From: Novakomyces olei
Taxonomy: Eukaryota > Ascomycota > Novakomycetes > Novakomycetales > Novakomycetaceae
Assembly (NCBI GenBank): GCA_016906335.1
Contig: JADEYG010000012.1
Location: 806,501-870,500, forward strand
Direction: 5' to 3'
DNA length: 64,000 bases
The notes beneath the pieces are model-generated. The model was not told the DNA's origin. It was given only the letters and a program-made list of their open reading frames with translations, and did no database searches. The position numbers and the translations under genes are program-made. How positions within the stretch are numbered: the stretch's first letter is position 1; the number at the start of each line of letters is the position of its first letter. This document shows, one piece after another, positions 37,951 to 44,860 of the stretch.

Positions 37951-39283
37951 TCAGCCTTCCATCTCATCATCACCACCTCGCTCCATAGAGACGACACTCA
38001 TGCACTGGTACTTGTGAGCATAACTAGATTTCCAAAGCCTGATCATTCCATCATCACCAGCACTGCTCAATATCGTTCCGGTGATGTTGAAAGAGACCCG
38101 CCAAACTTGTGATTTATGGTCATCAAAATCAGCAATAAGCTCCACCAAGTAAGATGCACCAGAATGACTATCACTATCGTCATCTTCATCGTCGTCATCA
38201 TCATCATCCTCGCCCTCTCCTTCCACGCCATTCAGTCCATCAGCAGCGGCAGAAGCCTTATCCGGCCGTGCACCCAGACCTTCGTTATCCAGAGCCGTCG
38301 AGGCCTCTCCAGCTTGCTGTCTCCTTCGCCGCTTTGAATTCGACTCTGTAAGCTTGAATATCCTGACATGCCCATCGCGACAAGCAGTCGCAACTAGCTG
38401 ATACGATTTCCCCATACTACGGCCCCAAGTAATATCCCGTACCAGGTCAGTATGACCCTCCAGGGCCTCACCGGGCTGCCATTTGCCGGCACGGTCAGTG
38501 CGCCATACCCGCACTGTATTCATAGCACCGACGGCAATCTGCTGACCGTTCCAGCGTGACGGGCACCAAGTAAGACAAAAAGAAGCCTCGCGATCACGTG
38601 GAGGCGGCTGTTGCAGTACCATAAGCTCGTCCATCAGCGTCCAGTGCGCAATATTGTTTGGCTCCAGGGCTTCATAGACTCGCAAATACGCGTCTGCCGA
38701 TATAGAAGCGAGCCGAAGGCCAACGTGCTCCGGAGCAAACCATATATCGTGCACGGCAGCACGTGAGTCTGCCAATCGAGCTTTCTCGACCCATCGTTTA
38801 CCGGAATTTTTGGGCGCTTTGATTAGGAATTGTAATTAAAAACAAAGTTAAAAATGTGAAAGATTTAATTATTTTTAATTAATTGTTTATGTAAATTTTT
38901 GAATAATAATGAAGAATGAAAACAAAATTAAAGCAAAAATAGAGAATTTGAATAAAAATAAAACATAAACAAACAACTAGAAATATGGGCAAAGCACTGT
39001 TCAGCTTACCGTGAGGCTGCTCTTGGAATATCCGGACAGTACGGTCAACGGATGCGGTGGCAATTACTTGCCCATGCTCAGGGTGAGCCCAAATGACTTT
39101 TAGTAATGTCGCATCGGCGGCTTTACAGCTGTCGCTCTCATCCCACGAATCTGTTTCTTCCACGTAATCAAAGACCTTGAGCCTCAAGTCCGATGAGCAA
39201 GTGGCAAGGCGTTTCCCATAGTAGTCGTATGCAATATCATGGATCAGATCCTTATGATCTGTCCGAATCACTCGCGCCTGCAT
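37951..39283 (-). CDS. SEH1: Nucleoporin/GATOR2 WD40 protein SEH1
   Basis: Two exons, 39010-39283 and 37951-38816 (193-base intron), 379 aa. Six WD40 repeats are visible: HKDLIHDIAYDYYGKRLATC, AHPEHGQVIATASVDRTVRI, RAAVHDIWFAPEHVGLRLAS, GHTDLVRDITWGRSMGKSY, VATACRDGHVRIFKL, and SQVWRVSFNITGTILSSAGD. Seh1 is a member of the Y complex of the nuclear pore and of the SEACAT/GATOR2 complex that activates TORC1. The joined linker KNSGKRWVEKARLADSR matches the family. An acidic loop of Asp/Glu (bases about 38165-38220) is inserted in the fifth repeat region. Complete. Confidence 0.94.
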
Positions 39284-39511
39284 TGATTATGGATGGCTGA
39301 AGGGTTTGCCGTATAGTGTCATGATATGTAAATTCACAATATGAATATTAAAAAAATAATGATTATTAAAATAATGATTATTCAAAATAATATCTATTAA
39401 AATAATGAATATTAATTTTATTCTCACTCCCAAGCGATATTATCGTGGTACACGAGATATACACATTGTAACAAAAGGGATACATGGTATAAAATCTAAT
39501 GCTATTTAATG

Positions 39512-40337
39512 CTACATGACGGCGGGCTCACGCCCAATGCTGGTCCAGTATTCGCGTCGGGCAGCAAATAATTCATCTGTCCATTGTAAGACGAGCTTGT
39601 TGTTAATACCATCGCGAACGCTGGTAAATTGACTCAAATCTTTTGCGTCGTTAGACTGGCGCTCATACTCGTACATTTGTACAAGCAGCTCGTACTTGTC
39701 CACGTCTTTGACGAAAAGAGCTTCTGGAGTAGTACGCGTCTCGTATTCTATAAACAAATCCATCAACTCGCGTCCACGTGCCCTATACTCAGCCGTATCC
39801 GGCAGCAGTGTGACAATGTCCTTCATCGCTTGTAGCTCACGGCAATGCTTCTCCTCTATCATCCATTAGTCTTTCGTCAGAAAATGAAGCAGGCAGCAGA
39901 AAGCCAAGTACCTTTGCTGACGCCATCGAGCGGAGTTATATCCCCCACAAGCGACTCTGCCATATCGTGTACGAGCGCTAGTCTGACGCACTTGTTGGCA
40001 TCGAGCGATGAATCCGTACTCAGCATACATATCACTGCCATTCGATACATATGGTCCGCACAAGATTCTGCCGTTAGCTAATGCATTCTATTTTGCCTTT
40101 GATTTTTATGGACTATTCCCTGCTTCTTTGAGGCTTGGCCTCTTGGCTTGTCGGGCTCGCTTCCCATCTCTTCCTGTTCAGCATACCCGGATTTGGAACA
40201 CGATGGTTAATCCAGCCCGTGCGCGGAGTCAGTTTGAGCCTCTGTATTATATTCAGAAAGCTCAAGACTGACGCTGGCTCGGACGACACGTCCGGTACGG
40301 AGGCCAATTGGCCATCGCGATGCGGCGGTACAAGCAT
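39512..40337 (-). CDS. HD-domain 5'-deoxynucleotidase (HDDC2/YGK1 type)
   Basis: Three exons: 40187-40337, 39912-40067, 39512-39855, with introns of 119 and 56 bases (branch AGCTAACGG and GACTAATGG), 216 aa. The metal-binding HD superfamily residues are present: [20 protein letters not shown] (first His and the SxxDH block), [17 protein letters not shown] (HD pair) and [17 protein letters not shown] (last Asp). Members hydrolyse deoxynucleoside 5'-monophosphates. Length is normal for the family. The alternative reading that starts in the last exon would lose the metal site. Confidence 0.92.
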
Positions 40338-40891
40338 GAACTCGAGAACTGCCGATTAGTTTGGTTAGCGGCGTATAAGAAATAAATAACGCAGAAATAA
40401 ATAACGCTTACAACGACAACGGAGACGATAACGCGCGCTAGTGCGCGCGGAATATTTATTGTAAGAAATACAGTAGAGTATATAAGTTTATTAATAGAGT
40501 ATGAATAAATATAGCAATAATAAATATAACAATAATAAATACAACAATAATAAATACAACAATAATAAATACAACAATAATAAATACAACAACAAGAAAC
40601 AACAATAATGAATACAGTACAAGGATGAGGCAAAATGTGGTCCGCCAAGACGTACGCTGATTGCCTTGTTAATACTGCGCATATACGGTGGTCACTTTAC
40701 TCATCTCGCGTTATGAAATGGACGACGGGAAATGTACGTGTATAAACAATCGAATAAAATTGACATATTCCTACACGAAATTGCTCTGAGAGCACAACGT
40801 ACATTGTGAGCACAGCTTTACTGCTGCCAATATACAATGTGTCGGGCGATCCGACACTAAAATACACAAGCTTGCTTACGTCACAAAAGAC
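40338..40891. repeat. Spacer with 15-base tandem repeat
   Basis: Bases about 40498-40615 carry some seven copies of AACAATAATAAATAC. The rest is AT-rich with no gene. Confidence 0.75.
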
Positions 40892-43800
40892 TTATGCGTC
40901 CAAATAGTCTGCTACACTGGCAACAGAATAAATAAGCCGTGCCTGGCAAGAAGCCTCACTGGCCAGCAGCGCGATGTAGACACGCTGGGCCACACTGAGG
41001 TTTGCAGAGGCTCCAAAAGTACACCAGTCACGGTAGGAAATAGCGTGTGGACACATGCAGACTTTCTTCAAAAACGCCATGACGGAGTTGGGCACAAGCA
41101 TAGAAATTTCACGATAGTCATAGTCATCCTTCATGATCCCAAACAGCCGCTGAGCACTGTACCAAATTGCATCTCGGAACGGTGTGGAGTCCAGCTTTGA
41201 CACTCCCAAGTCTCGGCCCACCGAGTCAAGTGCCGGTTTGGCTGCACTGCTCCTGGCACTGGCCAAATCCTCCATGGCTGTGAGATCGTCGAGTGCCTCC
41301 ATGGCATTATGAAACTCGCGTTCAAACAGCTCGTCCATCTGTGGGATGTAGCGGCCAATAATAGCGGAAGCTTGATCTTCCCAGCTGTACTCTCCAAGCT
41401 GCAGTATATCCTGGTCACTGCTCTTTGAAAAATAGCGTCCATTACCGGCCAAAGCGTCCGCCTCTAGTGGACTGCGTGGCACGTATCCCCTGGCAGTGTA
41501 CCTCGAGGCATCTTGCAGCATAATCCCCACTGGCCTATCATCCGCATTTCTGCCTGCACGATCAGCTGTACCCAGTGTCGAAGCGGCCGCTGCCCTTCGA
41601 CGCAGACGGGGCAAAGTGCTTGATTGTAGATTGCTGCCTTCGCTACTGGCACTGTCACCTTGAAGAGTGGCACTACCACCATCAAAATCAGCACCCGTTT
41701 TGCCTGTTTCCAATCGCGATAGCTGAGCAAGCGGTGAGGCAGTTGACGGAGCCGATGTGGAAGTAGTAGGAGCCACAGGACTCGCAGCAAGTGCAGAAGC
41801 GGGTGCTATAATACTACAACTGCCATTGCCATTGCCACTGCCAATGCCTCCAGTGCTCTTACCCTCAGCGTTACTCCGTGGCGATGGAGGCCGACTCGAT
41901 GTTTGCAGCTCGCCTGTTCGCGAGTCAATGCACTGCTCAAAGCTGTGCAGACGGTTAATCTCTCTCATCGATCCAGTCTGCTCTGCTCCATTAGCTTTGT
42001 CACCACACCGAGCCAGACGCGCCCGGAGCAAATGCTGCAGGGAAAGGTACTCGCCTGACTGAGCACTGTCGTTATTATTGTCGTTGTTATTGTCGTTATT
42101 ATTGCTGCTACTGCTGCTGCTGCCGTTATTGTTGTTATTGCTACTACTACTACTGCTGCCGAGCCCTTGTCCCTGGACGCCGTAGGCAAAGGCGTCCACG
42201 AACGAGGGCACAGTCAGTTTTGCCAGTGGCGAGTGACGTATAAGGCTGTCGTAAAGGTTCTGTGAGATTTGGTTGCGTACTTTATAGCTCGGATGGAACA
42301 GGTCCTTGGGCCTCAAGGAGCCAAGCTCCTGTAGCCAGCGCAGTTCAGAATCAATCGTGTTTGAGTCCTGTGGTGGCAGCGAGGCAGGAGCTATAGCGGG
42401 CGAGCGTACACACGACCCTCCAAGGGTATCCGCCTCTGGAACTAGGGCAAAAGACAGAGCCTGCTGGCACCGGGCAGAGAAGAAGCATACACAGGCCATT
42501 GCCTGGACTAAGGCAGCCATTGTCCAAAACTCTGTACTATCCTTGGGGCCAGAGTTCCCATGCAACAGTTCACGGACATGCTCCCTGCGAAAGCCCCAGG
42601 GACACCGGATAAGCAGAGGCAGGTAAGGCGCCAGGCGACGGAACCTGGACGGAGCGTGATCCAGGCCTTTGAGCCACTCACACTCTGCAACAGTGGCACT
42701 TTCCTCAAAAAAGGCCGATAGCAGGGAAAGATAGTACTGGCAAGACATTACACTGGCCGTCATTATGCCCAGGTAAAGCTTGTAGGCCAGTGGCAATGGG
42801 CCATTGTTTGAATGGATGAGCCACTCAAACGTCTCGTAAACGCTACCAAGGTATCTCGGGAAATACGCCAGCATTTTACTGATGTTTGTAACTCGACCGT
42901 ACTGCAAAAACGACCGGATAAACAGCCGCGTCAAGTCTGGTCCTGCTCTCCACCTTGGGCCCACGATTCCGGAGGGCACACTCGTGCCCAAAGTGGCAGC
43001 TCGACGAGGCGAACTGTCCTGCCTCGCCCGTCTCTTGTTCGCCATTGATTTTCCCTTGGCATTATAGCTATTGCTATTATTCATATTATCGCTGCCCTGC
43101 TGGTACGAGCTAAATGGTGTTCGTGAAAAAGCAAATAGCGGACTGGGCTCCGTTATCCGCGACTGTGACTGCTGACGGGTCATGTTTTTAGCATTGCCCG
43201 TGGGCCTGAATGCGGAGGCATTAAAGGAAGAGCCGCTATTAAAAGTCACTGCTGTGTTAGGACTCTCATTCATGTCCCTCGTAGAGCTTAGACCAGACCG
43301 GCCAGAGACATTGCTCCGAGTCCTTGTGGATATTGGGATAGCAGAGGAAGAAATTGATCGGGCATCCGTGTCCTGCGCTGCCATTTCAAGTGCTGGACTC
43401 GGTGTGCTTTGGAGAGAGTAGGAATCTTCTCCTTTTCCGTCTCCTTCTTCCACCATACTAGCTTCCTCATCTGCTTCGTCTTCCACGTCTTCTTCCTCGT
43501 CTTCATACATTTCAATTTCCTCGCTATTGCCGCTAAAATCGCTCAGCATGTCCAGCGAAAACAGGGAACTGTCGTAAACCGCCGACCCTGGGCCAGGGCT
43601 CTGTCGGTTTCCCACTGAAGGCCGGCTGCCAAAAGACGCCTTGCTGCCAAAGGAGAACGATGAAAATGAATCTGAAAAAACAGAGAGCCGACGAGGTTTA
43701 CGTCGCCGTTTTGAAGAAGTGCCTACATTTGTCGCAAACCCTACAACCTCTTGCGGCGCAATAAAACAACTGGGAGAAGGTGAAATTAAATCAGGTGCAA

Positions 43801-44860
43801 AATTAACAACTTGCCGAAGTCGACGCAATTGACTGCGACAGCATCGTCTTACATCAGCATAAGGGCAGTCATTGCTCAAGTTTAAAGCTCGCAGCATATA
43901 TGCCCCGAGCAATTCTCGCCGGGCCGATTGCTCCTCAATATTATTGGCAGCTGGATCGTTCTTCATTTCCTCTTCCAACACCATTTCGTCAACGCCATAG
44001 GGACCAATTGATCCGAGTGTCGTACTCTGATAATTTGTAGAGCCATTAAATCTTTCGTCGCCCGCCAATTTAGATCTAAACTGAACTCCCGCAATAATAG
44101 GAGTTCCCTCATTGTTTAGGCCAGAAAGGTTTGAAAACGAATCGTTTGGCGATAAGACGCTGGGCGACTCTAATCTAAATTTTGCCAAATTCTCTGCATT
44201 TTCTGCATCTTCTTCTACACTAAAGACTTCGTCCCAGGGAGAGTCACCTGATGTAGGCTGCTGCTGTTGCTGTTGTTGTTCTTGTTGCTGTTGTGCTAGC
44301 CGGCCGTCTTTACTAGAATTGTAAGCAGCATTGGCAGTTTGTGGAGCACGTGTTGAAGGCGATGGAGCAGGCCGAGGAGTTTCTGCCTCCGCAATAGCCG
44401 CTGGACGAGAGTTGGGGGCTTTTGAAATCAGACTACGCCAAGCCTGGTTTCCGTACAGCGTGCGAATCAAAGACTCGAGGAGCTGAGATAGACTTTCAAG
44501 AGCATTGCGCCGTAGTGCAGGGTCATCAGTCTGAAGGCTATTGAATATGCATAATTGCGCACGGCTAGCATGAATATAGTCGAGCAATTGGCTAGACCCT
44601 AGACATATTTAATTGTGGAAACAACAAAGAAAGGATGAAACGTCAGAAGAAAGCAATCAAATAAATTAAATTAAACAAAAACAAATAAATATATAAATAA
44701 ATAAATAAATAAATAGATTAAACAAAATTAGCAAGAACGATGAATAAAATAATACAGAGGGTAAACACGATTTGGAAAATTAAATAAAATGCTTACGCCT
44801 TCTAGTCGGCCGGTGCCCGCTATCACGAGCACTGCCACTAGGTTTGGCCGGTTCAAACAT
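40892..44860 (-). CDS. Sestrin-family protein, 1256 aa
   Basis: Two exons, 44797-44860 and 40892-44598 (198-base intron), 1256 aa. Start MFEPAKPSGSARDSG. The N-terminal sestrin-like block LDYIHASRAQLCIFNSLQ is followed by long Ser/Asp/Gln-rich disorder. The redox-domain block starts GPLPLAYKLYLGIMTASVMS with Cys about 641 in the position of the sestrin peroxidase Cys, then LKGLDHAPSRFRRL, RCPWGFRREHVRELL. After a second disordered insert with Asn/Ser runs comes the leucine-sensor-type C-terminal domain: YSWEDQASAIIGRYIPQMDE, FGIMKDDYDYREI, NLSVAQRVYIALLASEASCQ. In animals sestrins bind GATOR2 and restrain TORC1 when leucine is low. The His expected seven residues after the Cys is Leu here. 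Fold assignment is firm; sensing role is inference. Confidence 0.88.

Follow-up and report, generated by a model that had tools for sequence, protein, structure and literature searches.

Sestrins have been described in several fungal groups. Published examples come from Mucoromycota, Entomophthoromycota and Neocallimastigomycota and, scattered, from other early-diverging fungi (PMC11836306), as well as from Yarrowia (PMC11429811), and, as in the genome studied here, they occur in fungi with GATOR complexes. A paper in Nature Communications nevertheless lists homologs of sestrin, CASTOR1 and SAMTOR as lost in fungi, with few clues to their origin (PMC10957897). The two halves of sestrins share a remote ancestry with bacterial AhpD and fused AhpD-like proteins (PMC11429811), and a SESN2 query finds 2oyo, 6k40 and 2prr at E-values of 2.5e-6 to 3.2e-5. 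Unlike sestrins, AhpD proteins are described as having a two-Cys site and no DDYDY hinge (PMC11429811, PMC4674687).

The window analysed here, a stretch of 64,000 nucleotides, contains a gene which, judged by its sequence, encodes a true sestrin. Fungal sestrins as such are already known, and the notable part is the combination of changes in the leucine pocket: in the published passages on sestrins that were covered, no fungal sestrin is described with the same set.

The sestrin gene and its host

Open reading frames in the window give a two-exon sestrin gene on the minus strand (44860-40892) with a product of 1256 amino acids (Table 1), compared with 480 amino acids of SESN2. This length requires a 198-nt GT-AG intron, because the ATG-initiated frame without splicing yields 1030 amino acids. 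Six AG sites were compared as possible acceptors, of which the one at 44599 alone joins exon 1 to a long frame, and GC content is 21.7% in the intron and 51.7% in exon 2. The sequence blocks quoted by the first-pass annotation are recovered in one frame, GPLPLAYKLYLGIM from residue 621, LDHAPSRFRRL from residue 667 and FGIMKDDYDYREI from residue 1174.

Table 1. Features of the sestrin locus and the adjacent genes (window positions)
Feature	Position	Strand	Basis or remark
SEH1, GATOR2 subunit, two exon frames	37951..39286	-	PDB phmmer of longer frame, 7.4e-70
Part of HD-domain gene between sestrin and SEH1	39515..39865	-	PF13023, 7.7e-16
Sestrin exon 2 including stop codon	40892..44598	-	open frame; PA26, 6.8e-57
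SESN-C half, residues 1086-1256	40895..41407	-	phmmer to SESN2 382-479; MAFFT
Gln1226 codon (CAG), aligned with SESN2 E451	40985..40987	-	paired alike by phmmer and MAFFT
DDYDY, GATOR2-binding hinge by alignment to SESN2, unchanged	41114..41128	-	residues 1179-1183
Linker, residues 746-1085, carrying a low-complexity insert of Ser, Asn, Gly and Ala	41408..42427	-	composition; GC resembles the coding core, unlike the intron
SESN-A half, residues 575-745	42428..42940	-	phmmer to SESN2 residues 64-241; MAFFT
Redox Cys codon TGC, Cys641	42740..42742	-	alignment to SESN2; codon reading
Sestrin intron, 198 nt	44599..44796	-	GTAAGC...TAG; predicted from sequence
Sestrin exon 1, 64 nt (21 codons and the first base of the next)	44797..44860	-	ATG; GTAAGC donor

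Family identity was assessed with the exon 2 product alone (1234 amino acids), which served as query in both the Pfam and the PDB phmmer searches. The Pfam family PA26 is matched at E = 6.8e-57 and 193.8 bits (cut-off 29.4) in two stretches that cover both halves of the protein; no other family reaches its cut-off in this product, and no AhpD family is matched. The first-pass annotation had let its case for a 1256-residue sestrin in a single frame depend on such a profile search, and the match is clear and far above chance level. In the PDB, five Sestrin-2 chain sequences are found at 2.6e-30 to 8.7e-25, each in two stretches. The best solved relative is SESN2 (2.6e-30), aligned over its residues 64-241 and 382-479. 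Searched over the whole genome (14.34 Mb, 15 contigs), the PA26 profile matches the sestrin locus only, again in two stretches (4.4e-30 and 3.7e-24). The LAHRPW motif in the SESN-A half of SESN2 is partly kept and corresponds to LIRCPW, with L166, P170 and W171 kept and A167, H168 and R169 changed. A collection of non-eukaryotic sequences was scanned for relatives by pattern; none was found among 475 and 168 matches in viral contigs, nor among 116 matches in prokaryote genomes. Single-sequence AlphaFold2 yields low-confidence models consisting of helices only (pLDDT 37.3 and 41.5), too poor for a reliable reading of the two AhpD-like helical halves that the first-pass annotation had named as its second criterion.

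Between and before the two halves, the protein contains long inserts. A reading of the large inserts as unspliced introns was rejected on GC content (0.48-0.56 in the inserts vs 0.217 in the intron). They are not peculiar to the sestrin either: the SEH1, MIOS and WDR24 frames of the same genome contain similar low-complexity inserts, which are therefore ordinary here. By eye, the N-terminal extension (residues 1-560, window 42983-44860) is of low complexity, rich in Ser and acidic in part, and is interspersed with short stretches that look helical, and Pfam returns for it a sub-threshold HEAT match only (E 0.32). Neither Rfam (at gathering scores) nor ARAGORN (bacterial code) reports a match in the window.

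The host is a fungus, as the first-pass annotation had it. Its genome has two matches to the chitin synthase N-terminal domain and 56 Zn2Cys6 matches, and ERG4/ERG24 and Kre9/KNH domains lie within the window. For IMPDH and SEH1, the best PDB matches are chains that we take to be fungal. A 615-residue piece of Prp8 scores 1585 bits with 9r8v (two stretches), 961 with spp42 and 913 with hPrp8, by their names presumably the proteins of S. pombe and human. The results on Prp8, IMPDH, SEH1 and Zn2Cys6 fit a fungus, without pointing to a given phylum.

Redox site and leucine pocket

In SESN2 the peroxidase reaction involves a proton relay of Cys125, Tyr127 and His132. MAFFT alignment with SESN2 (PDB 5dj4) pairs Cys641 with C125, Tyr643 with Y127, Leu648 with H132 and Leu629 with H113; the relay is thus incomplete, with Cys and Tyr kept and both relay histidines replaced by Leu. 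The codons for Cys (42742-42740), for Tyr two residues on (42736-42734) and for Leu at +7 (42721-42719) are as the first-pass annotation described them. Its further proposal, that the His change marks an altered fungal branch, was rejected. A survey of 213 non-metazoan sestrins published in 2024 reports C125 in 90.1%, Y127 in 91.5% and H132 in only 1.9% (PMC11429811), so that the missing His is the rule outside animals. The word "lost" may even imply the wrong polarity, since the same survey takes H132 to have been gained later, in metazoans (PMC11429811). SESN2 with the mutation H132A has no more redox activity than a peroxidase-inactive control (PMC4674687). Should the fungal protein have any peroxidase activity, this would depend on Cys641 and Tyr643, with neither relay histidine to assist.

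Sensors of the SESN2 type bind leucine near 20 µM, and the leucine carboxylate is coordinated by R390. The first-pass annotation had pointed to this pocket, and the alignment to SESN2 displays a larger departure here than at the redox site. E451 is replaced by Gln1226, W444 by Gly1217, L389 by Phe1162, T386 by Ser1159 and H454 by Tyr1229; the lid T374-Y375-N376-T377 reads L-D-D-L, and the latch H86 is Phe601. R390 is retained as Arg1163. These assignments come from pairwise comparison with a single sequence that is about 30% identical (45 of 154 and 43 of 141 positions). Independently of MAFFT, phmmer also pairs E451 with this Gln and W444 with this Gly. The assignment of Gln1226 is secure because its helix is ungapped and rich in identities, while those of W444 and the lid are less secure because of insertions of two and 23 residues nearby, and a nearby Trp in RDWCTF could stand in for W444. 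The segment from YSWED to DDYDY contains only two Thr, so that misalignment does not conceal a TYNT lid.

Published SESN2 mutants indicate what such replacements may mean. Mutation of E451 abolishes leucine binding (PMC11429811), and Y375F abolishes the leucine interaction and leaves GATOR2 binding unaffected (PMC10938194). The triple mutant SESN2(E451Q/R390A/W444E) is an apo-locked form that served as cryo-EM sample (PMC12477443). According to the 2024 survey, non-animal sestrins mostly keep three of the pocket residues replaced here (E451 in 80%, T374 in 76.1% and T386 in 75.6%; PMC11429811), which places the window sestrin in a minority. As far as the aligned sequence tells, the animal-type leucine pocket seems to be lost in this protein.

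GATOR2-facing surface and partner genes

The GATOR2 side of the protein is better preserved in part. The DDYDY hinge in the SESN-C half, which also carries the changed leucine site, is identical to that of SESN2, and D406 and D407 are kept; of 20000 shuffled versions of the sestrin protein, 4 contained DDYDY. Among the other residues on this side, D346 is kept, L351 is Ile and D364 is Glu. WSLAEL, a motif of the SESN-A half, is likewise partly kept and corresponds to WTMAAL, with W189, A192 and L194 kept, S190 changed to Thr and E193 to Ala. The survey of non-animal sestrins finds E193 kept in 87.8% and Thr at S190 in 32.4% (PMC11429811). In its Cys and Tyr, missing His, Thr at S190 and acidic D406/D407, the window sestrin thus resembles sestrins of that set.

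Likely partners are encoded in the same genome. WDR24 is found at 2.7e-88, its propeller scoring 204.5 bits against chain 9dx0_C of WDR24, and SEH1 at the value in Table 1. A second zf-RING_16 gene of WDR24/WDR59 type above cut-off is the putative WDR59; two further zf-RING_16 matches and most of ten Rag matches were set aside as weak. Contigs other than that of the sestrin carry this second RING gene, MIOS, NPRL2, IML1 and two strong loci for Rag GTPases. Profiles for the CASTOR1 N-domain, KICSTOR C12orf66 and IFT46 match neither in this genome nor in any control genome. The genome also encodes a LeuA dimerisation domain (leucine synthesis), in line with a host that makes its own leucine.

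SEH1 is the second gene downstream of the sestrin, starting 1.6 kb past its stop on the same strand, and WDR24 (contig C12, 780633-782954) lies on the sestrin's contig and strand at a distance of about 64 kb, approximately 61.5 kb beyond SEH1. The probability by chance is put at about 0.0011 that SEH1 lies within 8 kb and at 0.0098 that WDR24 lies within 70 kb, values which are post hoc and uncorrected for the several GATOR genes whose proximity would equally have been noticed. The linkage may reflect co-inheritance of the module. Between the sestrin and the HD-domain gene, window 40459-40696 translates into repeated Ile/Tyr/Cys units, apparently a short DNA repeat.

The propellers of WDR24 and SEH1L are reported to suffice for binding SESN2 (PMC11429811). 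In a published model, R228 of WDR24 contacts SESN2 (PMC12477443), and mutating R46, K120 and R167 weakened binding (PMC10938194). The host WDR24 has Arg at the positions of R167 and R228 and Ser at that of K120, and R46 falls outside the alignment; the Ser at K120 speaks against a fully kept interface. R228 was dropped as support for sestrin binding: GGRD occupies the same place in Rtc1, which we take to be a yeast protein, and a kept R228 is therefore not diagnostic. Yeast is listed as having no sestrin (PMC11429811).

The host WDR24 scores 300.6 bits with WDR24 vs 132.7 with Rtc1, and its propeller piece alone (query residues 140-773) 115.1 vs 26.5; this WDR24 (locus L011, 1137-3455) thus has a propeller nearer to WDR24 of human type than to Rtc1 of yeast. 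SEH1 of the host runs opposite, with 238.7 bits for the best SEH1 chain vs 142.4 for 5a9q, presumably a human chain, the best SEH1 chains being of yeast type. An animal-like WDR24 where sestrin is retained fits a leucine-blind, GATOR2-binding sestrin, as a correlation only.

Possible roles of the protein

We consider a leucine-blind sestrin that still docks on GATOR2 as a brake on TORC1 the best explanation, and hold it to be true with slightly more confidence than doubt. The DDYDY hinge would most likely dock on the WDR24-SEH1 part of GATOR2, and the docked sestrin would restrain TORC1. Because the leucine-holding and lid-closing residues are replaced, leucine would not be bound as in animal SESN2, if the published SESN2 mutants are a guide. 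The sestrin could then be a standing or expression-controlled brake; alternatively, it could respond to another signal via its reshaped pocket or its long low-complexity tails. Against this reading count the kept R390, the change of E193 to Ala, the Trp in RDWCTF and the Ser at K120 of WDR24. The evidence base is one assembly, aligned to a single SESN2 sequence. More specifically, we tentatively suggest a natural "apo-locked" sestrin, which would be blind to leucine, constitutively competent for GATOR2 and thereby a brake on TORC1, without an intact peroxidase relay or leucine pocket.

The kept R390, together with a SESN-C half that aligns throughout and the presence of GATOR2 partner genes, may instead suggest that the protein still senses leucine or another amino acid through a diverged pocket, with other residues in place of E451, W444 and the lid. 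The sestrins of early-diverging fungi have been proposed as leucine sensors (PMC11836306), unlike the leucine-blind reading favoured here. We regard a sensor as rather unlikely, since it would have to accommodate E451 to Gln, W444 to Gly, Y375 to Asp, T374 to Leu and H86 to Phe all together, and SESN2 is reported to be leucine-blind when mutated at E451, at Y375 or in the triple mutant. A mainly redox function, either as Cys-Tyr alkylhydroperoxidase or as redox switch with GATOR2 binding secondary, would account for the kept Cys641 and Tyr643 and for the wide conservation of C125 outside animals, but the inactivating effect of H132A, in a protein that has Leu at both H132 and H113, and the identical GATOR2 hinge make it improbable. 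The number of changes in the pocket and the great length of the low-complexity stretches could also mark a decaying or subfunctional relic. Such decay is hardly credible for an unbroken 1256-residue frame with a clean intron, an untouched DDYDY and matches in both halves, in a genome where SEH1, MIOS and WDR24 carry low-complexity inserts as well.

Which of the sestrin roles, as redox enzyme, leucine sensor or GATOR2 ligand, came first is treated as an open question in the literature covered (PMC11429811), and sestrin has been proposed as the ancestral leucine sensor of fungi (PMC11836306). An exact DDYDY together with a dismantled pocket, in a genome with GATOR2 partners and a leucine-synthesis domain, provides a direct test case for separating GATOR2 binding from leucine sensing. 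If the apo-locked reading is true, it would suggest that the GATOR2-binding surface, rather than leucine sensing or redox chemistry, is what selection has preserved in sestrins outside animals.
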